From positions 1 to 35,069 of the forward strand of contig JAVZCK010000020.1 in assembly GCA_038874435.1 (NCBI GenBank): a stretch of DNA of 35,069 nucleotides, in the 5' to 3' direction. The notes under the pieces are model-generated. The model saw only the letters and a list, made by a program, of their open reading frames with translations. It was not told the DNA's origin and made no database searches. This stretch comes from Thermoplasmata archaeon. GTDB lineage: Archaea > Thermoplasmatota > Thermoplasmata > Lutacidiplasmatales > SKW197. The position numbers and the translations under genes were made by a program. Shown piece by piece: positions 1-32,369 of the stretch (position 1 is its first letter; each line of letters starts with the position of its first letter).

Positions 1-165
1 GGTGAGACTTCAATTGGGAATATGGATGCATGGAGACATTACTTAGAAAAGAGAGGGTGTCCCATCTTGCTCCAAATGGGACACACCGCGAATGCTTCCT
101 TTCTACCCAAGGAGGTTTTTATATGCCACTCCCAAATAAAGATTTGTAATGGCTATTCTTTATGA
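1..165 (+). CDS. possible 3' end of an unrecognised upstream gene (partial)
   Basis: Frame 1 is open from the first base of the window to a TGA at 163-165. It encodes about 54 residues of mixed composition (W, C, H, M and G all present), including the stretches NMDAWRHYLEKRG and LLQMGHTANASFLPKEV, which read like real protein rather than a shadow frame. I do not recognise the family. The frame runs past the first possible start of the downstream giant gene (149) and overlaps it by 17 nt. It also runs through a 9-bp inverted repeat at 57-84, which could argue against coding. The gene start lies outside the window. Confidence 0.35.
   Translation, partial: GETSIGNMDAWRHYLEKRGCPILLQMGHTANASFLPKEVFICHSQIKICNGYSL
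57..84 (+). repeat. perfect 9-bp inverted repeat (stem-loop)
   Basis: GTGTCCCAT at 57-65 is exactly complementary to ATGGGACAC at 76-84, with a 10-nt loop. It lies just ahead of the promoter region of the giant gene. It could be an RNA hairpin near the end of the upstream transcript, an operator, or chance within a coding frame. No T-run follows, so it is not called a terminator. Confidence 0.4.
116..124 (+). promoter_or_regulatory. TATA box for a leaderless start at 149
   Basis: TTTTTATAT lies 25-33 nt upstream of the ATG at 149, the archaeal TATA-to-start spacing for a leaderless transcript. A second TATA-like element, ATTATAAAA at 195-203, sits before the alternative ATG at 245, which also has purine-rich GGAGAAGG at 226-233. 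The two candidate promoters match two candidate starts. Confidence 0.4.
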
Positions 166-3100
166 CCCTTTAATTGGATTCCATTCCACCCCAAATTATA
201 AAAACAAGTATGCATTAGGAAGCGGGGAGAAGGATGTGATTCGCATGGACGAACTTAACGCCAGGATTGAAAGGTTCAACAAAATTTTGGAGAAATACAG
301 AGAGATTGGATTTAAAGTGGGAAGTTTTAATCCGAATGCACAGAGCCATGTACCGCTCCAGGAAAGATATGAGAATTTTGAGAAAATCATGAAGGACAAT
401 TTAAAGGCAATGATCGTGCACGAACTTGTAGAATTTGAGAGACAGTTAGACAACATAAAAAGGATGGGAATCAACATAACCCCAGATATTAGGATTGCTC
501 AGGAACTAGATAAAATTTGTGAAACAGGTGAAGTTCTTTCAGAGGATGTAGCTGCAAAAACAGGTTTACTTAGAAATGAAATAAAGAAAGTTGACGAGGA
601 AATTCATCATGAGACAGATAAATTGATAGAAAAACTCAAAACAATAGAGAAAGACCTCGAAATTCTACCTGATGGTACCAAGCAGGAATTGCTGCCTCAG
701 ATTAGAAGAGCATATGAAAGATTTGAAGCCAAGAGATATTACGAGGTATGGTTCAACGCAAGGAAGGTTATAGCAGAGTATGAAGGCAAGATGTTTGGTG
801 GGATTCTGGCACAGCTCAATTATCTCACCTCCAGAGTAAATTCTTTGAAGAGCATAGGTGCAGATGTGCGAGAGGCGGAATCCCTTCTAATCCTAGCAAA
901 GGCACAGTTCGAGGGCAGGGAGATTGACAAAGCCCAGCAAACAATTGAAAAATGCACAGCAGTCCTTGACAAGAAGGAAAATGAAAGCATAGGACAGAAC
1001 ATAGAGAATTTCGAGAGATTTCTTGCTAGAGCAATGGAAGTAATATACATCGAACCATCAGTATCTGAAAGGCTAGCTTTACTGAAAGAGGAGGCAAGAA
1101 AAGGAAACTATGAGTTTGCAGCCAATGGATTGAAAAAAGAAATTGCAGAGCTAGAGCATGCTCTCAATATCACGATAACGAATTTGAACAATGCATGGGA
1201 AAGGGATAGAAATGCAGCTGAATTCTATGGAATTCAGGTAAATTTGCAAGAATGGAAGATTCTTCAAAACATGCTCAATGTGGATAAAATTGATGGAATA
1301 AAACAGATACGGGAATTTTTGCTTAAGCTTGAAAAAGAAATAGAGAAAAAGCGATTTGAAGCCCAGAAAACTACTGCACTCACTGTCTCCCAGCCACCTC
1401 CAACACCAATCCCTTCTCCACAAGCTGTTCCTCAAGCTACTCCATTACCTACTCCAACTGTCTCTTCACAACCCTCTCAAACTCCACCAGTTCAAGCTGT
1501 GCCCGAGGCAAGGGTAGAAATCCTTCCTCCTGTAAAACCAGTGGAAGCTGCAGGAGAAACGCAGCCCGCACAAATAGTTTCACCTCAACCGCAGGTTAGC
1601 CAGGACATGAAGACAAGAATTGACAATTTCAATCTAATTCTCGCAAAGTACATGGAATCAGGAGTAAAGCTTCGACTCTTTGATCCCACAGCGCCAAGCA
1701 AAGTTCCAATCCAGGAGAGGTTTGAGAATTATGAAAAACTCATGCAAAACAACTTGAAAGCATTTTTGACACACACCCTTATTGACTATGAAAGAAACAT
1801 AGACAACGCAAAGAAAATAAATCTAGTTGTGGAGGAAAACCCCGCACTTGCCGCTGAAATTGAAAGGGCAGTGGAAACGGATGGGGTTCTTTCAATGACT
1901 ATCGCAGAGAAAGCAAGCACTCTGATGGAACTCACTAGAAAAGCCCAGAACAGGATAGAGAGAGTTGCAAGAACTGCAATGGAGGATATAGACAAAATTG
2001 AGAAGATTCTCTCAGAATTGCCACTAGAAAGGGAATACATAAATGCCCAGATTAGCAAGGCAAGAGAAAGGTTTGAGGGCAAAAGATATTACGAGGCATA
2101 CCTATATGCAACAAAGGTTCTAAAGGAGATAGAGGGAAAAACATTTGGACTTTTGATTCCTAGAATTGAAAGGGCAGGAAAATACATATCTGAGCTCACT
2201 ACTCTGGGAATGAATATCTCAGATGCAGCAGAACTTCTGAGAAATGCAAAGGAAAAATATGATGCTAGAGATTTTGTAAGAGCGAGCGAATTAATGGATG
2301 CATGCGAGAAAGAGATTCACAAGATAATTACAGCTAACATTAGTGCAAGCGTGGAAAAATTTGAGAATTATGCGAAGGAACTTGACAAAATAATGAAACT
2401 TGATGTGGATATATGGCTCAAAATTGAGATGATGAAGAAAGCCGTAAATGTTGGGAACACAGACGAGGCGAGGGAACTCCTAAACATGGAAATGGAGAAA
2501 CTAGAAGGAAAGGTTTCAGCATTTGTAAATACATTGATGCAATCTCTTCGCAATACAATGGAATGTGCTTCTCTTGCTGGGAAGAAAATTGAAGATGAGG
2601 CGCTAGAGGGTCTGAGAAAAGGGATTGAGCAGAACAGGGTCGAAGGAATAAGAACTACAATAGATTTCTTAAATAAATTGCAAGCAGAACTTCGGAAAAT
2701 GATGGCCGACAAGCTCGAAGAAGTGGAACACCTGATGAATGAAGTGTATGATACAGAAAAGAAGACGAAGTTTATGGAAAGCCTGAGGGTGTTAGTTGAG
2801 AAAGCGAAAACAGTTGCATTCATATCTGAGCAGTTTTCTGAATGGCATGGGGAATATGGAAAACTGCAGGCAGAGGTGAAGCAGGAAATTGAGCAGGAAA
2901 TTCTACCAAAACTTGAAGAATTGAGAAAAGACCTGAAGGTGCTGGTAAATTCCAATTTCAAAGTGGATACAGCTGGTAAACTTCTGAAAGAACTATCCGT
3001 GCTGATTTCCGAGAAAAAACTTGAGGAAGCAGGGAAATTCTATGAAGCTAGAAAAGAGGAGATTGCAGCACTCATCAATGACTTTATAAGTGAGCAGCTT

Positions 3101-5890
3101 CAGCCGATCTACCAAAAAATCACAGAAGTTGAAATATACAGAATAAATCTGGAGGCAGAGAAGGAAGAGGTGAGAAATCTTGCAACTTCCTGGAAAATTG
3201 GTCATCTAGAAGAACTGAATCAGAAGATAGACGAGCTGAAGAAAAACTATTCTGAAAAACTTAACGGCATAATCAAACAAAAGATCGAAAAGGCAAAGGA
3301 AAACATCAGTTTGCTCTACGAGTTTGAATTTGGTGGGAAGCCAGATATTTATGAAGAGTACATCAAGAACGCTGAGACCTGTTTAGGTAAGGGCGAAAGA
3401 GGTGATGCTCTCAGAAACTTGATGAATGTCGGCGAGGTTTATGGGCGAATCAGAGCAAGGATTTTAGCTGGCACTGAGGAACTTCGTGCAAAGGCAGTAA
3501 CGCTAACTGAACTGGGTGTAATGATACCTGAGATTCCAGACATTATTCTCAAAATCAACGAAGAAATTGATGCAGAAAACTTCCACCAGGCAAGTAAAAT
3601 TCTGAAAGAACATTTAACAAAATTCGAAACAATGCTGCAGGAAAAGATTGCCTTGGACATAAAGAGTATTGAAGAAGCAATAGGTGAATTAAAGAAATTT
3701 GGGTATGTGAGTGAAACCTTAAGCATTGCGTATGACATGGCAAGGAATTTGAGTGCTGAAAAAAAGTACAAAGAAGCAAAGGTCTTTATTGTTCGCTGCC
3801 GTACATTGATTTCCCAAGAAAGCATGAAGGTCTTTGAAAAGGAATATTCTGAGGTTACCCAGATGCTTAAAGCTGCCTCTTCAAGAGGGATAGATACGAT
3901 TGCACCTAATGCCTATCTCAACAATTTTCGGAGAGAAATTGGGAGCTTGCACTTCCATCAGGCAAGATGGTTCATAGAAACAGCAAAAAGAATGCTAGAT
4001 GAAGAGATAAAGAAGGTTGCAAAAGCAGAGCTGCAGGGCTTCTCCGATGTGATAAATCTCTACTCCCCAATTTTTGGCAAGGAGTTCTTTACGAATCTTC
4101 AGAAAAAGCTCGGCGTAATACTTGAACTCTATCAGACAGGGAAGTATTTGGAGTGTATTGACAAGGCAAAAATGACAAAGGAGGAGATTAACCTTACATT
4201 ATCAGAAAGAATAAGAAAGGAGCTTGAAACTCTCAGAACCTGGATAGAAAAATTTGAGAGATACGGAATTGATTTTGATACAGTGAAGTCCACCATGGCA
4301 GAGTGCAATGCATATCTGGACTCTGAGAAAATCCAGGAGGCACTTTCCAAGTTGAAGGACGCAAAGAACAACATTGTCCAGATACTTACAGAATTTTTGA
4401 GAGCAAGATGCGAAGATGTAGAGGACTTAATGCACACTTCTGAAAAAATGGGTGGAAACACTGCAAAATATAAGGACTCTATAAATAATGCTAGACATTT
4501 GATAGACGAACAGGAGTTTATAAATGCAGTTAACATCATTGATGCAGTTGGAAAGGATGTGGCCTCCCAGCTCCACTCTCTGGTTTACCGAAAAATCCTT
4601 GACATTAACGCAGGAATTGCTGCACTCACAGAAAGTGGAGTTGTAATAGATGAGGAAGTAAAGAGACACAGAGATGCTAGTTCTACTGCCCTTGCCTCTG
4701 GTCAGTATTTTGAGGCAATGCACGAAGCAGAACTTGCAAGAGGTTTCCTTGCTAAAAATATAAAAACATATGTGTCTGAGAAACTGAAGGAGACCACGAA
4801 TCTTCTTGAAACAGGCAAGGTCACTGGCTGCGAAATGAAAGAGACCACAGCGCTGCTTTCCGAAATGGAGAATGCAATTACAACAATTGACATTACGAAG
4901 GTAAGTGTACTCCTCAGGCAATTAGAGACCGTACCAAAGAATGAACTCGAAACGCATCTAAATAAACTCATAGCTGAAACCACTGAGATTGCAGCTGTGC
5001 TTAAAGAGCATGGTGCACCGCACGAAAGTGCAAAGGAAATTATCCAGCATGCAACCAATCAATTAATCTGGAAGAACTATGCAGAGGCATACTATTCAAT
5101 TCAGAGGATAAGACCATTGCTCATAGGGGAGTTGAGAGAAAAGGTAAAGCAGGAACTTGAGAAATATGAGAAAATTGCCCAGACACTTGACAAGATTGGT
5201 ATATCATCTGAAGAGATTATGGAAAGAGTTGCCAAAGGCAAGAATGCAGTTAAGGACGCAACAGTGAATGAACTAATCACAACATTGAACGAGATCAGGA
5301 AAATGGTAGAGGAGATTAATATCAAAAATGCAGAGGTATTGAAAAAAGATACAGAACGGCTCATAGCGATAATTCAGATTGAGCTTGCAAAATGGGATAA
5401 ACTTGGCCTGGAAACAGGTGAGTTTTACGCAATGGTTAGGAAGCTTGGAGAGTTGTTCAATGCACATAACTATCTTGAAGCGAGTGCACTCGCGCAGACA
5501 CTGGATGATGGGTTTACAAAAGCAATGGAATATCGCGTTAGAGAGGTCATGGAAAATGTGAAGCAAAAACTTGCGTTAGCCAAAAAACTGGGTGTGCAGT
5601 CAGAGTACAATGTGGAACCCCTTCTCAGTTTTGCTGGTTTCCACTCGAAAGATAAAATGGAGGATGTGTGTGTTCGCCTCCTTGAAATCGAAAAAATGCT
5701 AGATGTGGAAAACCTGGTAAAGGTAAAGGCACTTTATGAAGAAACAGATAGAATTGTGCGTTCAGACCCATCTGCTCCTCAGGGATATCTAATTGCACTA
5801 GAACGTGCTAGAACGATGATAAATACGGGTAAATATCTGGAGGCGTATGTCCTCATAGAACGCTGCCGTAACCTGATTACACAGTCATAA
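149..5890 (+). CDS. giant all-helical repeat protein, unknown function
   Basis: 1913 residues, very rich in E, K, L, A and I, with no signal peptide, membrane segment, P-loop or enzyme motif that I can see. Residues about 36-405 and 487-860 are a tandem duplication: ERFNKILEKY is matched by DNFNLILAKY and VPLQERYENFEKIM by VPIQERFENYEKLM. They are joined by a Pro/Gln/Thr-rich linker at about 410-485. A short helical-hairpin motif (A-x(5-7)-[GKN]-x-[YF]-x-E/Q-A, then often I-x(2)-C/A-R-x-L) recurs about every 60-65 residues, near 188, 250, 313, 638, 699, 760, 948, 1075, 1135, 1196, 1260, 1320, 1385, 1445, 1508, 1633, 1762 and 1886. This suggests a long TPR-like or spectrin-like rod, possibly a scaffold (inference). 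The start is uncertain: ATG 149 gives the longest form, but ATG 245 has its own TATA and a purine-rich RBS and begins just before the duplicated block. Automatic annotation may call it SMC-like, but it has no ATPase head. Confidence 0.85.
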   Translation: MAILYDPLIGFHSTPNYKNKYALGSGEKDVIRMDELNARIERFNKILEKYREIGFKVGSFNPNAQSHVPLQERYENFEKIMKDNLKAMIVHELVEFERQLDNIKRMGINITPDIRIAQELDKICETGEVLSEDVAAKTGLLRNEIKKVDEEIHHETDKLIEKLKTIEKDLEILPDGTKQELLPQIRRAYERFEAKRYYEVWFNARKVIAEYEGKMFGGILAQLNYLTSRVNSLKSIGADVREAESLLILAKAQFEGREIDKAQQTIEKCTAVLDKKENESIGQNIENFERFLARAMEVIYIEPSVSERLALLKEEARKGNYEFAANGLKKEIAELEHALNITITNLNNAWERDRNAAEFYGIQVNLQEWKILQNMLNVDKIDGIKQIREFLLKLEKEIEKKRFEAQKTTALTVSQPPPTPIPSPQAVPQATPLPTPTVSSQPSQTPPVQAVPEARVEILPPVKPVEAAGETQPAQIVSPQPQVSQDMKTRIDNFNLILAKYMESGVKLRLFDPTAPSKVPIQERFENYEKLMQNNLKAFLTHTLIDYERNIDNAKKINLVVEENPALAAEIERAVETDGVLSMTIAEKASTLMELTRKAQNRIERVARTAMEDIDKIEKILSELPLEREYINAQISKARERFEGKRYYEAYLYATKVLKEIEGKTFGLLIPRIERAGKYISELTTLGMNISDAAELLRNAKEKYDARDFVRASELMDACEKEIHKIITANISASVEKFENYAKELDKIMKLDVDIWLKIEMMKKAVNVGNTDEARELLNMEMEKLEGKVSAFVNTLMQSLRNTMECASLAGKKIEDEALEGLRKGIEQNRVEGIRTTIDFLNKLQAELRKMMADKLEEVEHLMNEVYDTEKKTKFMESLRVLVEKAKTVAFISEQFSEWHGEYGKLQAEVKQEIEQEILPKLEELRKDLKVLVNSNFKVDTAGKLLKELSVLISEKKLEEAGKFYEARKEEIAALINDFISEQLQPIYQKITEVEIYRINLEAEKEEVRNLATSWKIGHLEELNQKIDELKKNYSEKLNGIIKQKIEKAKENISLLYEFEFGGKPDIYEEYIKNAETCLGKGERGDALRNLMNVGEVYGRIRARILAGTEELRAKAVTLTELGVMIPEIPDIILKINEEIDAENFHQASKILKEHLTKFETMLQEKIALDIKSIEEAIGELKKFGYVSETLSIAYDMARNLSAEKKYKEAKVFIVRCRTLISQESMKVFEKEYSEVTQMLKAASSRGIDTIAPNAYLNNFRREIGSLHFHQARWFIETAKRMLDEEIKKVAKAELQGFSDVINLYSPIFGKEFFTNLQKKLGVILELYQTGKYLECIDKAKMTKEEINLTLSERIRKELETLRTWIEKFERYGIDFDTVKSTMAECNAYLDSEKIQEALSKLKDAKNNIVQILTEFLRARCEDVEDLMHTSEKMGGNTAKYKDSINNARHLIDEQEFINAVNIIDAVGKDVASQLHSLVYRKILDINAGIAALTESGVVIDEEVKRHRDASSTALASGQYFEAMHEAELARGFLAKNIKTYVSEKLKETTNLLETGKVTGCEMKETTALLSEMENAITTIDITKVSVLLRQLETVPKNELETHLNKLIAETTEIAAVLKEHGAPHESAKEIIQHATNQLIWKNYAEAYYSIQRIRPLLIGELREKVKQELEKYEKIAQTLDKIGISSEEIMERVAKGKNAVKDATVNELITTLNEIRKMVEEINIKNAEVLKKDTERLIAIIQIELAKWDKLGLETGEFYAMVRKLGELFNAHNYLEASALAQTLDDGFTKAMEYRVREVMENVKQKLALAKKLGVQSEYNVEPLLSFAGFHSKDKMEDVCVRLLEIEKMLDVENLVKVKALYEETDRIVRSDPSAPQGYLIALERARTMINTGKYLEAYVLIERCRNLITQS

Positions 5891-10463: not shown

Positions 10464-12317
10464 CTAGTGTTCGATGTTTGAATCTAGATTTTTTAGAATT
10501 TCTTGTATTTCTTCGGCTTTGGTTTTTAGGGCTTTCCTGTTACTGTAAAATTTCAAAGCGTCTTCCAGAATTGCTTTTGCCTCATTTTTTCTTCCGAACT
10601 TGATAAACATTTCAGCCATGTCACAGTAAACCTCTATAGCAGAATCCTCAGCGCCTGCACTTCGATAGAGTTGAATGGCTTCATTGTACGCATCCTCTGC
10701 CTCCTCAATTTTCCCATTTAACCCAAGAATTTCAGCTCTAGCAGAGATGACCTCTGCTTTCTCGTCCCAGAAATCCGTCTCTTCAACAACTTTCATAGCC
10801 TCTTCAATGTAACGGTACGCATTCTCGAAATCTCCTTTTTCTGCATGAATAACACCAATTCTGGCAAGCACAGATGAATACATCCTCTTTTCACCGGTCT
10901 CTTTACAAAGTTCTATTGCAGTCAAGTAGCATTCCATTGCTTTTTCTTCCTGTCCTATTTCATTGTACTCATTTCCCAACCCAGTGAGGGCATAGATTTC
11001 ATAGTACTTATTCCCAGTTCTCCTAGAAATTTCAAGGTCATTCTTAGCATATTCTATTGCCTTTTCATGCTCTCCCATATTAGACCATACACCTGCTAGG
11101 TTATTGTAGGCAGTTGACACACCAGATAAATCACCAATTCCCTCCCAAATTTTTTTTGCAGTTGTGTAGCATTCAACTGCCTTTTCCCAGTCCCCAAGAT
11201 AAAGATACACAATCCCCATATTATTGTAAGTTCCAGCAATGTCCTTTTTGAGATTATGTTTTTTTCTGATTTCAAGGGCTTTTCCAAAGTATTCCAGGGC
11301 TTTGTCTAGTTCGCCAGCAAACCACATACCAGTGCCAGCCCTATGGTATGCAGTCGCAATTGCAATTTCATCCTGTGTGTGCTTCGCACATTCGAGAGCC
11401 TGAAGATAATAGGCAAGCGCTTTTCCAAATTCTCCTGTTTTTTCAAAACAATGACCAATTGCACCAAGCAATTCAGCACGGTGTACATAATTTTCCTCAG
11501 GGATCTGTTTCAGTAGAGATGTCAAAAGCTCAAACGCTTTTTTGAATTCGCCAATAGAAAGGTAGGAATACGCTAGCATTACACAAATCTCCGTGTTTCT
11601 TATCGTATCATTCTCGTTCTCAAGTACCTTCTCGTATGCTACAATTGCCTCCCTAAAATCGGAAGTAATGTATTTACAGTGGCCCATCACGAGGTAAAGT
11701 CCTTTTGTGATTTTTTGTCTGTCTTCTCCATCTGGAAGTTTTTCCATGATGTTAGCCAGTTCATTAGCAAAAAACATCGCATCCTCAATCACATAATTTC
11801 TGAGGGCATTTTCAGCCGCAAGAAGCAAGAATGGCGCTGCTTTTTCATATTCCCCTGCAAGTAAATAATGCTCTCCGATAACTCCTGCAAATCTTTCATT
11901 TTCTCTATGCAGTTCTACTAGTGCATCTCCAGCCATCTTATGAATTTCTTTCCTTCTGGGGAGAATAATCTCAGAGTAAACTGTCTCTCTCAGTAGATTC
12001 TGTGTAAATGAATAGGATTCCTCTGTTTCCTCTTTGAGATAACCTGTATTTATAAGTGTCTCTAAGACATCTAGAAGTTCCTCTTCTTCCATCCTTACTA
12101 CTTTGGTCAAAACAGCATATTCAAAGGTGTTGCCTAGTACTGCACAACTTCTCAGTACTTTTATCTCTCGGTCGCTTAGATTCTTTAACCTATAGTTTAT
12201 AAGATTTTTGACCCCTTCTGGTCCTGGCAAATTCTCTGCATACTTTGGATTTTCAAGTTCAGTTTGTGATGCTTGTTTTAGAAGTCTACACCTCCTCAAC
12301 GAAAAAAGGATTACCAC
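10464..12317 (-). CDS. TPR region of a frame-split STAND-like ATPase
   Basis: 617-residue frame. After about 150 residues of helical, winged-helix-like sequence it carries about ten tetratricopeptide repeats at 40-residue spacing (MalT/LGN-like), for example AYHRAGTGMWFAGELDKALEY and TYNNMGIVYLYLGDWEKAVEC. In families of this type such repeats bind protein or ligand signals. The only upstream start is a GTG at 12317 with no convincing RBS, and it lies 32 nt inside the preceding ATPase frame. From CRLLKQ onward the sequence continues what the ATPase frame should have encoded after FFVEEV. I therefore read the two as one gene (10464-12996, about 840 residues) broken by a +1-type shift near 12286-12297, by mutation, sequence error or programmed shifting. 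Its 3' end faces the DUF429 gene 11 nt away. Confidence 0.75.
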   Translation of the reverse strand: MVILFSLRRCRLLKQASQTELENPKYAENLPGPEGVKNLINYRLKNLSDREIKVLRSCAVLGNTFEYAVLTKVVRMEEEELLDVLETLINTGYLKEETEESYSFTQNLLRETVYSEIILPRRKEIHKMAGDALVELHRENERFAGVIGEHYLLAGEYEKAAPFLLLAAENALRNYVIEDAMFFANELANIMEKLPDGEDRQKITKGLYLVMGHCKYITSDFREAIVAYEKVLENENDTIRNTEICVMLAYSYLSIGEFKKAFELLTSLLKQIPEENYVHRAELLGAIGHCFEKTGEFGKALAYYLQALECAKHTQDEIAIATAYHRAGTGMWFAGELDKALEYFGKALEIRKKHNLKKDIAGTYNNMGIVYLYLGDWEKAVECYTTAKKIWEGIGDLSGVSTAYNNLAGVWSNMGEHEKAIEYAKNDLEISRRTGNKYYEIYALTGLGNEYNEIGQEEKAMECYLTAIELCKETGEKRMYSSVLARIGVIHAEKGDFENAYRYIEEAMKVVEETDFWDEKAEVISARAEILGLNGKIEEAEDAYNEAIQLYRSAGAEDSAIEVYCDMAEMFIKFGRKNEAKAILEDALKFYSNRKALKTKAEEIQEILKNLDSNIEH

Positions 12318-12996
12318 CTGTTTTTTTATAAATTGTGTCTAGGACCTTTTTATGAATCTTCCATGTAGCCAGAAGTTCGCATACAATTTTAGCTGTCTGG
12401 GAAGAAGTGAGTTTCTCGAGAGTAATTGTTCTAATGTTCCTCTCAATATTCAGATTTCGCAGAAACTGAGTAAAATTGTTCTCAACTGTAGTATATTCAC
12501 TTCCATAGGCACATACCACAACCATTCTTAACTTTGCCAGATTTCTGGAGAGATAATGAAGAAAGTTGAGAGTACCTGTATCCGCCCACTGTATATCATC
12601 TACCATGAAAACACAAGTTTGGCCTGCTGCAATTTCCTCAAATCTTCGTAAAAACCTCTCCAGAACCATTGTCTTAGCCCTAGCTAAGGATTCTGCCGCT
12701 TTTTCTTCGCTATGGGAAAAACTAAGGCCGATTGGGAGTGGTTCCAGAGAAGTTTGGGTAGATTTCTGAAGCGCATGTTCTACTGGAGAATATGGAGCAT
12801 CGCCAAGATTACATCTAGCTTGCAATACAAGTGCACCATGCTGGATGGAAAGGGTTGCAAATTCTTGGAGCAAGTGGGTCTTACCAATGCCTGTTTCTCC
12901 AGTAATTAGAAAAAACTTCCCTCTACCAAAACCTGCATCATTTAATGCTGTGGTTAATGTTTCCATTTCTTTTTCTCGTCCTACAAACACTGCCAT
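12286..12996 (-). CDS. AAA_16/STAND-like ATPase domain (N-terminal half of the split gene)
   Basis: 236 residues. It starts FVGREKEME, the usual opening of this ATPase group. The Walker A motif GETGIGKT is near residue 33 and Walker B, CVFMVDDIQWAD, is near 130. It ends GGNPFFVEEV followed by a UAG; relatives continue from this conserved motif into an R-L-L helix, which here lies in the other frame. There is no N-terminal effector or DNA-binding domain, so any output must come from partners or from the C-terminal part. The ATG at 12996 has no strong upstream RBS. It lies 68 nt downstream of the sugar nucleotidyltransferase gene and could share its transcript. Confidence 0.75.
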   Translation of the reverse strand: MAVFVGREKEMETLTTALNDAGFGRGKFFLITGETGIGKTHLLQEFATLSIQHGALVLQARCNLGDAPYSPVEHALQKSTQTSLEPLPIGLSFSHSEEKAAESLARAKTMVLERFLRRFEEIAAGQTCVFMVDDIQWADTGTLNFLHYLSRNLAKLRMVVVCAYGSEYTTVENNFTQFLRNLNIERNIRTITLEKLTSSQTAKIVCELLATWKIHKKVLDTIYKKTGGNPFFVEEV

Positions 12997-29646: not shown

Positions 29647-31095
29647 TCAAATTCCATATTTTTTCAGCAATTTCTCATAAAGTTTGAATTCCTCGCTCAT
29701 GGCAAACTCAGATATTTTCTCCTCAGGGAGATTACCAAGGAGTTCATCTAGCGTTTTAAGCACCCTTGCAATTTCCTCTTCACTTAGCTCTACCTCTTTC
29801 TCGAACTCTGGGATTATTGATAGCACACCTGCTGCAACTGCGAGTCCGAATTTCCTCTTAGAATAGAAGAAGGTATCGGAGCGTTCCATATGAATCCGCT
29901 TACCGGCCAAAAGTATGTTACCATCAAAAAAGCAAGCAAATGCATCTACCCTTTCTCTCCCAATGACTTCCAAATTTCCAAAGCTTAGAATTGAATAACC
30001 TTTTCGCTTAGCCCTTGCGATAACCGTGGCCAGAAAATTGCAAATTTCCTCTGTGCTGTAAATCTGGGTGCTTGTGGTTAGACAATCAAGTATTAGAACC
30101 CCCTTACCATCAAACCTCCTAAGAGCCCAGTCAATTGCCACACTTAGATAAACAATATCTCTGGAAACAACGATCTCTTTTTCTCTGTCCTCTGCTCCAG
30201 TAATTTTCTTTGTAGTGGATGAGAACCAATCCACAAATACAAAATTTTTCGCATCTAGAAGCTCAAGCTTTTTCTTGGTCTTCAAAGTCTCTGTAAACTC
30301 TTTTAATGTGGTCTCCCCAGCAACAAAAATACAGGGTTTTCCTGAAAAAATGGAATCGCTTACAGCTTGTTCAATCAGATATTGTTTAAGATGGGTATCA
30401 CTGCAGAACAGGAGGGCATAATTCTCACTTACACCAGTAGGGAATAACAACTCAGAACCTGGAAGCCAGAATAGGTTCTTTCCACCAGACCAAGAAACAT
30501 TGCATCTTTCTATGCCACTGGGTGTGCGAAGCACAACATCACTCTCTCTCACCCCGTAGTGCAATTCCACATCATCATCCGGTCTTTTCAAACTTGTGAT
30601 TGTAAGTTTTCCATTGGCCATGTTGAGAAAATAATCAAAACTGTGCTTTATTGCGCCAACTACTTCTTCAAAAATTTCTGGCTTCTCTATGAGCACAAGA
30701 AGGGCAATACCTTTCTCTTCACAATAGGCACAGATATTTTCCAGCAGGGCAGTCGCAGTTTCCTTCTCATAAAGAAGAAGCACTGGTGTAAGGTGAAAGA
30801 AAAGCTTTTCAATCCCATCAATCTTTTTTAGAGTTGCAAAAAATTGGACAGGGTCAGATGGCATTATCAAAGTATCCTGTTTTTCTGCGGGAAGGCCAAC
30901 ACGGTCAGAATACCAGTCAATCATTTTATATCCAGAGAGCTCAAGAGGTTTTGTCAACACACAGTGTCCGTTATCTACTAGAAAATGTTGAATCAGAAAG
31001 AGAACATCATGGAAGTCCTCCGTTACGAGCAGAATTCTTTTTCTCCTCCCTGCTTCAATCGCATTATCAACTGCAGAAATCTGGAAAATTCCCAT
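29647..31095 (-). CDS. tandem P-loop-less KaiC/RecA-like protein
   Basis: 482 residues, soluble, no close family name recognised. It appears to hold two copies of a KaiC/RecA-like fold. Copy 1 (about 18-180) has RILLVTEDFHDVLFLIQHFL, then KMIDWYSDRVG, a helix/strand pair ending IALLVLIEKPE, and SFDYFLNMANGKL. Copy 2 (about 222-400) has YALLFCSDTHLKQYLIEQ, FVFVDWFSSTTKKI, KGYSILSFGNLEV and RVDAFACFFDGNIL. Neither copy has a Walker A motif at the expected place. The D-W-[YF]-S strand aligns with ILIMDLGAM of the adjacent KaiC ATPase. The C-terminal 80 residues are helical and acidic. It starts 5 nt after the KaiC gene, so it is probably a regulatory or structural partner of that ATPase (inference). 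Confidence 0.75.
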   Translation of the reverse strand: MGIFQISAVDNAIEAGRRKRILLVTEDFHDVLFLIQHFLVDNGHCVLTKPLELSGYKMIDWYSDRVGLPAEKQDTLIMPSDPVQFFATLKKIDGIEKLFFHLTPVLLLYEKETATALLENICAYCEEKGIALLVLIEKPEIFEEVVGAIKHSFDYFLNMANGKLTITSLKRPDDDVELHYGVRESDVVLRTPSGIERCNVSWSGGKNLFWLPGSELLFPTGVSENYALLFCSDTHLKQYLIEQAVSDSIFSGKPCIFVAGETTLKEFTETLKTKKKLELLDAKNFVFVDWFSSTTKKITGAEDREKEIVVSRDIVYLSVAIDWALRRFDGKGVLILDCLTTSTQIYSTEEICNFLATVIARAKRKGYSILSFGNLEVIGRERVDAFACFFDGNILLAGKRIHMERSDTFFYSKRKFGLAVAAGVLSIIPEFEKEVELSEEEIARVLKTLDELLGNLPEEKISEFAMSEEFKLYEKLLKKYGI

Positions 31096-31100
31096 ACTGA

Positions 31101-31817
31101 TCAGAATATCTTTGTATCTGCTTGAATCACAATCCCCTCTGGCGTTATCACAATTGGATGCTTTGTCGTATCATGCTTTGCAAATCTCATCTTTCTTACC
31201 ATTATTGTGCGCCTCAGTTCCCCTTTCACATCTTCTAGCCCTAGCACAACAAAGGAATCGCAGACAAATTGCTCAATTCCATAACGAGTGAGCGAGTTAG
31301 TTCCATCAGGCGATTCGGAAATGAGAAGAGAGGTCATATCCATCTCTTTCAGTTCTGTAGCAAAAACAAAAAGTTCCCGTCTTAACTCCTCAATATTCGA
31401 ATAATAAAGTCCTAGAGCAGTAATTGAATCGACAACGCATCGCTTTGCATTTGTAAGCTTCTGGATGTTTTTTATCACTTTAGCAACGGAAGAGAAATTT
31501 ACCATACCTTTTTCAATCTCCTTTGATATTGCTTCTTTCCGCATAGCACCTAAATCCATTATGAGGATATTGTTGTTTTTCTGATGTTCTAAAAGGTTAA
31601 ATTTGTAGTTATTCATCGCCCGCTCTATATTCGCTCTGCTTTCCTCTAAAGTGATGTAAATGCCTTTTTCCCCATTTTTCACACCACCCAGCAAAAACTG
31701 CATTCCAAAAAGGGTCTTAGCACTTCCTGCTGGACCACAAATAAGATTCACAGTTCTCGCAGGAATTCCACCCCCTAGCATCTCGTCTAGTCCTGGTATT
31801 CCACTTTTGATTATCAA
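31101..31817 (-). CDS. KaiC-family RecA-like ATPase
   Basis: 238 residues, a single KaiC domain. It opens SGIPGLDEMLGGGIP, then Walker A GPAGSAKT (about 28-35), the catalytic acidic pair in ITLEES (about 55-60), and Walker B CVVDSIT (about 127). The last 50 residues carry the conserved basic strand (LRRTIMVRKMRFAKHD) ending GIVIQADTKIF. The family uses ATP to drive oligomer-based signalling or, for ArlH, archaellum assembly; no archaellum genes are nearby. The TTG start at 31817 follows the SD-like GGTGGTGA. It is the third gene of a four-gene operon. Confidence 0.88.
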   Translation of the reverse strand: MIIKSGIPGLDEMLGGGIPARTVNLICGPAGSAKTLFGMQFLLGGVKNGEKGIYITLEESRANIERAMNNYKFNLLEHQKNNNILIMDLGAMRKEAISKEIEKGMVNFSSVAKVIKNIQKLTNAKRCVVDSITALGLYYSNIEELRRELFVFATELKEMDMTSLLISESPDGTNSLTRYGIEQFVCDSFVVLGLEDVKGELRRTIMVRKMRFAKHDTTKHPIVITPEGIVIQADTKIF

Positions 31818-31821
31818 ATTC

Positions 31822-32070
31822 TCACCACCTTAACTCCTCTTTCTCTTTAGAAAGCGTTGAAATTTTCTGGATTATTTCATTGCTCTTTTTGCCTGCAAAA
31901 TAAGGAAGAACCTCATTTAATCGCTGGATAAGTAAGGGTAGCTCTTCCGGACGGATGCTCTCTGGATTTATTCCGGCATCCTGGCATTGTTTAGTATATA
32001 TGAAAATACTCATGTTACCAACTGGGCTCTCCTGCATTGTTCTTACTATCTTCATCCCAAGAGAATTCAC
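31822..32070 (-). CDS. small helical protein, second gene of the KaiC operon
   Basis: 82 residues from GTG 32070. I chose this start because AAGGAGGTGA lies 4 nt upstream, an ideal Shine-Dalgarno, and because GTG overlaps the TGA of the upstream gene (GTGA). The frame also opens at GTG 32100, inside the upstream gene and without an RBS. The sequence is predicted helical with a conserved-looking core, IRPEELPLLIQRLNEVLPYFAGK, starting near residue 38. No family recognised. It ends 4 nt before the KaiC gene, suggesting equal expression and a possible complex. Confidence 0.75.
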   Translation of the reverse strand: MNSLGMKIVRTMQESPVGNMSIFIYTKQCQDAGINPESIRPEELPLLIQRLNEVLPYFAGKKSNEIIQKISTLSKEKEELRW

Positions 32071-32369
32071 TGGCTCACCTCCTTCACTAAATTGTAGCAC
32101 TCTTCTAGAAAATCCCTGTCATTACCGATCTCAGCAAGCACTGTGTTAGTAAGTAGGTTATATGTCATTTCTTCACCTAGTGCTACATATATCTTTGCGA
32201 CTGTATTCTTAATCGAGTTTTTCACATCTTGTTTGTTAAAATCATTTTCCGAAACTCTTATGACATCGGCGACCATTCCTGGTCCCAGCGATTTTTCAAG
32301 TATCTTAATCATGTGTGCATGAATCTTCTCCCATTTTCCAGTATTTTCTTCACAATATATGTTATCCAT
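32067..32369 (-). CDS. small helical protein, first gene of the KaiC operon
   Basis: 100 residues, helical, no membrane segment, family not recognised. Core features are IHAHMIKILEKSLGPGMVADVI and IYVALGEEMTYNLLTNTVLAEIG. The ATG at 32369 has AGAGGG 5 nt upstream as RBS, and ATTTAAAATA (minus strand, 32403-32412) as TATA. Its TGA overlaps the GTG of the next gene. It is divergent from the ABC exporter at 32453, so the two operons share a control region of about 80 nt. Confidence 0.75.
   Translation of the reverse strand: MDNIYCEENTGKWEKIHAHMIKILEKSLGPGMVADVIRVSENDFNKQDVKNSIKNTVAKIYVALGEEMTYNLLTNTVLAEIGNDRDFLEECYNLVKEVSQ

Follow-up and report, generated by a model that had tools for sequence, protein, structure and literature searches.

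The genes A100, B82, KaiC and pseudo-KaiC, which follow one another in this order on one strand of a 35,069-nucleotide stretch of Thermoplasmata DNA (the window), form a conserved cassette that is probably a genuine signalling device. It is rather likely that this device is an archaeal KaiC-hub signal relay. This reading is favoured because of the conserved gene order, the single clade formed by the cassette KaiC proteins, fusions of A100 to helix-turn-helix (HTH) domains, pseudo-KaiC proteins carrying membrane helices, and the company that B82 relatives keep with receptors.

Organization of the cassette

All four reading frames of the module proposed in the initial annotation were recovered in the given order and place, on the minus strand (Table 1). 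The start of B82 lies on the stop of A100 in a 4-nt overlap (GTGA), and gaps of 4 and 5 nt separate B82 from KaiC and KaiC from pseudo-KaiC, respectively, as had been read from the DNA before. Shine-Dalgarno-like sequences precede A100 (GAGGG), B82 (GGAGGTGA) and KaiC (GGTGGTGA). No clear ribosome-binding site is present upstream of pseudo-KaiC, whose start lies 5 nt past the KaiC stop; the ribosome-binding sites ascribed to the module are thus seen for the first three genes but not for the last.

Table 1. Features of the KaiC cassette in the window.
Feature	Coordinates	Strand	Description and basis
A100	32067..32369	-	100 aa, first operon gene, all-helical, five predicted helices
B82	31822..32070	-	82 aa, helical, GTG start, probable STAC-type adaptor
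KaiC ATPase	31101..31817	-	238 aa, single domain, TTG start; PF06745, alignment, tree
Walker A (P-loop) of KaiC, GPAGSAKT	31713..31736	-	alignment
Pseudo-KaiC protein	29647..31095	-	482 aa, without Walker A, without predicted membrane helix
Pseudo-KaiC residues 1-205	30481..31095	-	may be a degenerate KaiC-like domain (marginal similarity)
Pseudo-KaiC domain, residues about 206-427	29815..30480	-	hhalign; weak DUF7504 match; orthologues
Pseudo-KaiC C-terminal tail, about 45 residues	29650..29784	-	candidate docking element

Two further features of the window were recorded. A STAND-type ATPase and TPR protein (10464-12996, minus strand) is split into two overlapping frames of 236 and 617 aa. 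In genome G087 its closest relative occupies one uninterrupted frame (848 aa), and the window copy therefore has either a frameshift or an error of assembly; 41 matches to the TPR part were counted in G087. A 1913-aa protein with apparent repeated helical or coiled-coil segments is encoded at 149-5890 on the plus strand.

Conservation across the Thermoplasmata

In a class-wide search of 400 whole Thermoplasmata genomes, B82-type sequences were found in 42 and A100 in 19. When A100 copies at contig ends or not resolved were left out, 18 with readable neighbours remained, and KaiC was the next or next-but-one gene after A100 in all of these except L113 and L116. The linkage spans eight family-level lineages (f1, f4, f7, f12, f13, f17, f18 and f24). 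In 14 of the 16 linked copies B82 lies between A100 and KaiC, and it is missing from the cassettes L111 and L112. A pseudo-KaiC gene follows KaiC at every locus with a readable downstream gene except L061; the pseudo-KaiC of L062, at a contig end, was judged by eye, and that of L064 is split in two frames. The absence of pseudo-KaiC downstream in L061 and of B82 in L111 and L112 indicates that not every part is essential. Overlaps of 1-4 nt between genes recur among the cassette copies. Reading frames, gene order and spacing are all preserved from family to family, and the arrangement is therefore more than a product of chance.

The initial annotation had made its case depend on the small proteins being conserved beside KaiC and not belonging to known unrelated families. 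The first point is borne out by the linkage of both A100 and B82 to KaiC, and for the second, neither A100 nor B82 matched any family in Pfam or NCBIfam. A scan of all members of the A100 and B82 families gave scattered matches to unrelated families, none of them common to more than three members.

The nearest public relative, the MAG SKW197, carries these four genes as well, with a B82 that is 77% identical, and it was the sole match when contigs were searched with B82 alone. Outside the Thermoplasmata, 341 sampled genomes of the phylum yielded no A100; B82-type sequences are rare outside the class, and one example adjoins MCP and CheW genes. The cassette of the nearest relative, like that of family f24, is situated near a cluster readable as S12-S7-EF-2, which suggests that the cassette has long been at this location.

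A separate observation concerns the gene after pseudo-KaiC, which in f13 and f24 is Nnr-like (NAD(P)H-hydrate repair, by reading) and sometimes overlaps pseudo-KaiC (L063, L064, L065, L066, L067, L069 and L070). It is absent from the window and from the nearest relative of the window.

The small helical proteins B82 and A100

B82 is confidently predicted to be a helical bundle (pLDDT 92), in which DSSP assigns three helices, the last of them very long. Its best fold match in the PDB was Af1502 (Foldseek E 1.5, probability 0.75, TM 0.52/0.60), a match that is not significant alone. The profile of the broader B82 family also placed Af1502 first among 177,635 PDB sequences, with an E-value of 0.13 that is likewise not significant alone. 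Af1502 of Archaeoglobus is a small stand-alone helical protein translationally coupled to the receptor Af1503 (Korycinski, Hartmann and Lupas; PMC4834066; PDB 5A1Q), and in the divergent STAC family an LGPx(x)A motif is located between helices 1 and 2 (PMC4834066). STAC membership was assessed by a length of 60-90 residues, a four-helix bundle, and genomic coupling with SLC5, two-component proteins or receptors that lack an effector. The window B82 has VGNMS at the place of the motif; among its homologues, those on C18 and in L120 show the GPxA part. In the host genome and genus, B82 homologues are translationally coupled behind an effector-less dCache receptor, whose HAMP-like end was judged by eye and was not reported by Pfam. 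Because fold and profile searches agree on Af1502, and because the coupling of the homologues to dCache receptors mirrors the Af1503-Af1502 pair, B82 is probably a STAC-type adaptor as far as the predicted structure and the profiles indicate.

B82 relatives also adjoin a STAND-type ATPase, occur N-terminal to TPR proteins, and are found beside MCP and CheW. A broader reading would make STAC-type domains a general archaeal adaptor that links HAMP or chemotaxis receptors and STAND ATPases to KaiC rings, with pseudo-KaiC proteins as the receptor subunits of a KaiC transmembrane relay paralleling two-component signalling; this generalization is offered tentatively and is on the doubtful side. In family f15 (L045, L047, L050 and L084), a B82-type protein adjoins a cysteine-rich radical-SAM-like protein, Taw1-like by eye, on the opposite strand.

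For A100, the structure model (pLDDT 94) has five helices. Fold and profile searches against the PDB returned nothing meaningful for it, and A100 is a helical domain without known relative. In L061 and L112, a winged helix (weak Pfam HTH matches) precedes A100 in a fusion protein encoded upstream of KaiC. A hidden A100 domain was not detected in the HTH proteins that precede KaiC on contigs C9 and C6 of the host. Of the two small proteins that had been called unrecognised, both are helical and fall outside the Pfam and NCBIfam families, but B82 can now probably be placed with the STAC domains.

A different family membership, compatible with the relay, would be that B82 and A100 are both archaeal 'Death domain-like' adaptors. 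Their size, helicity and company would fit, and one B82 relative weakly matches NitrOD2 (E 0.14), a domain that has been assigned to the 'Death domain-like' family (PMC5847659). However, this match was confined to one of 21 B82-family members and is not significant, and it was rejected as evidence for membership. Fold searches produced no convincing death-fold match, and hhalign did not align the profiles of A100 and B82 convincingly with each other. The assignment is thus rather unlikely, and the placement of B82 with the STAC domains is preferred.

The pseudo-KaiC protein and its relatives

Walker A is absent from all 11 pseudo-KaiC proteins. In the window protein, only the region from about residue 206 to 390-427 is clearly KaiC-like, and a weak DUF7504 match is present. 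The comparison with the KaiC family by hhalign gave an E-value of 1.7e-5, and residues 201-482 matched the orthologues with an E-value of 2.7e-25. Residues 1-205 resemble the pseudo-KaiC domains of the orthologues only marginally (E 0.0018, probability 15%). In the orthologues of 741-876 aa, the N-terminal domain is followed by two domains of the KaiC/DUF7504 type (E 3e-23 and 2e-26 in L060), in most cases by a coiled coil, and by the C-terminal tail; the window pseudo-KaiC corresponds to a shortened form of them. The proposal of two KaiC folds without P-loops therefore stands for the missing P-loop and for the second domain, whereas the first domain is only marginal.

The C-terminal tail of pseudo-KaiC recurs in a zinc-ribbon coiled-coil protein, the gene of which lies at another place in the host genome (C3:117435-118321) and also in L127, L128 and L129. 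The sharing was seen in the host and three other genomes, that is, in all where the tail was read, and the tail is a candidate docking element. The gene of the zinc-ribbon coiled-coil protein adjoins another coiled-coil gene, the product of which begins MGLRDKAK.

Related clusters in the host combine pseudo-KaiC with other domains. On C9 and C6, an HTH-type protein (a winged helix by Pfam on C9, assigned by eye on C6) is followed by KaiC and then by a pseudo-KaiC protein of 1228-1446 aa. These pseudo-KaiC proteins have a membrane helix, borderline on C9 in the hydropathy scan, and a long, probably extracytoplasmic part. In L112, HTH-A100 is followed by KaiC and then by a pseudo-KaiC whose membrane helix precedes a large, probably extracytoplasmic part. 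Separately, frames of 3781 and 2193 aa on C1 (near 170585) and C7 (near 57379) begin with pseudo-KaiC domains followed by a membrane helix, and the C7 frame also has beta-helix-like repeats. Judged by their domain order, these giant proteins are candidate KaiC-linked receptors.

The shared tail could also be taken as a sign of a remodelling or scaffolding machine driven by ATP, in which the coiled-coil scaffold and the tail are central, and the Nnr-like gene that follows or overlaps pseudo-KaiC in f13 and f24 would hint at metabolite repair. Yet the HTH-A100 fusions, the pseudo-KaiC paralogues with membrane helices, and the receptor, STAND, TPR and CheW company of the B82 relatives all favour signalling, and the Nnr-like gene is missing from the window and its nearest relative. 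A remodelling machine is thus considered unlikely, and a signal relay remains the preferred reading.

The KaiC ATPase

The KaiC protein matches PF06745 over residues 3-235 with an E-value of 8.6e-64 and 215.5 bits (curated cut-off 26.6). Its P-loop, GPAGSAKT, carries alanine in place of the second glycine of the consensus GxxxxGK[ST]. This alanine (GPAGSAK[ST]) is found in 13 of 14 aligned cassette KaiC proteins, with the canonical glycine in L061, and the catalytic glutamate pair (LEE) is intact in all 14. Host KaiC proteins on C3 and C6, which are among the nearest paralogues, also carry the alanine, indicating a trait of a wider group rather than decay of the window copy. On the sequence evidence, the alanine might weaken ATP hydrolysis. 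The intact single-domain ATPase of the initial annotation is thus supported by the strong domain match and the glutamate pair, but is qualified by the alanine in the P-loop. The host genome has 36 PF06745 matches, and in a tree the 16 cassette KaiC proteins form one clade against 20 other host KaiC sequences, with moderate support (87/78).

An ArlH-like role of the KaiC as ATPase of an archaellum or type IV pilus, with pilus accessory proteins as its partners, is very unlikely. ArlH is indeed the KaiC homologue of the archaellum. Some archaeal KaiC genes are also located in pilus loci together with a helical DEATH-like partner (PMC4858521). The host, however, has a separate ArlH on C8 beside archaellins that scores 224 bits on the ArlH equivalog model (cut-off 215), whereas the cassette KaiC reaches only 56.7 bits, and seven other cassette-bearing genomes are without an ArlH over the cut-off. 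None of the loci read showed a recognisable pilus gene next to the cassette, and neither archaellum nor chemotaxis genes adjoin the window cassette, in line with what had been noted earlier. A KaiABC-like oscillator, in which the small helical proteins would replace KaiA and KaiB, is also very unlikely: KaiC is present and small helical partners have been suggested as KaiB replacements in some archaea (PMC4858521), but no KaiB match was found in the host genome, the single-domain KaiC scores 117 bits against the 546-bit cut-off of the NCBIfam clock-protein model, and the HTH fusions and membrane-spanning partners indicate a receptor relay.

A proposed KaiC-hub relay

In this relay, the single-domain KaiC would assemble into a ring that depends on ATP and serves as the switch. 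The P-loop-less pseudo-KaiC would dock on the ring as a regulatory or receptor partner and bring the input, and its C-terminal tail may provide a link to a coiled-coil scaffold. B82, as a STAC-type protein, would couple the KaiC ring to upstream receptors. A100 would form the output side; when fused to a winged helix it may be a transcription regulator controlled by KaiC, and as a stand-alone protein it could pass on the state of KaiC via protein-protein contact. We infer the formation of the ring, every physical contact, the direction in which the signal flows and the process that is targeted. The window cassette itself encodes an active-type KaiC together with an inactivated KaiC homologue. 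The linked input and output domains are present in homologous clusters (HTH-A100 in L061 and L112; membrane pseudo-KaiC in C6, C9 and L112) and not in the window copy, where A100 has no DNA-binding domain and pseudo-KaiC no membrane helix, and the assignment of input and output is therefore extrapolated from the relatives.

KaiC-like ATPases of unknown function are numerous in archaea, and the compact cassette offers defined partners for expression and testing. Should the contacts prove real, the hub model put forward for KaiC signalling could be tested directly in vitro. The cassette also links two known but unexplained elements, the inactivated KaiC homologues and the STAC-type domains.

Comparison with known systems

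With ArlH, the cassette KaiC has the single KaiC-type domain in common, and it differs by its low score on the ArlH model and by the separate ArlH of the host. With the cyanobacterial KaiABC system it shares the KaiC fold; in contrast, it has one KaiC domain instead of two, other partners, and a host without KaiB. The resemblance to the STAC protein Af1502 lies in the fold and profile matches of B82 and in the host-genus homologues that follow effector-less receptors, whereas the B82 gene of the window has A100 and KaiC as its neighbours, with no receptor gene in front of it, and its product deviates at the motif.

A literature search found no account of the four-gene cassette, the A100 family or the STAC link; the 2017 paper discussed next was itself outside that search. 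KaiC-like ATPases have been proposed as archaeal signalling hubs, together with inactivated KaiC homologues and 'Death domain-like' domains, by Makarova, Galperin and Koonin (2017, mBio 8:e01959-17; via PMC5847659; related, PMC4858521). With the hubs as described via PMC5847659, the cassette shares the KaiC-like ATPase, inactivated homologues, DNA-binding outputs, small helical adaptors and KaiC expansion within one genome, and it differs from this description in its four-gene order, the A100 family and the STAC-like adaptor. Of the undescribed signalling or assembly system that had been suggested at the outset, the conserved signalling-type cassette is upheld, whereas assembly is unsupported and the hub idea dates from 2017. 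The cassette is a new version of this already proposed idea.
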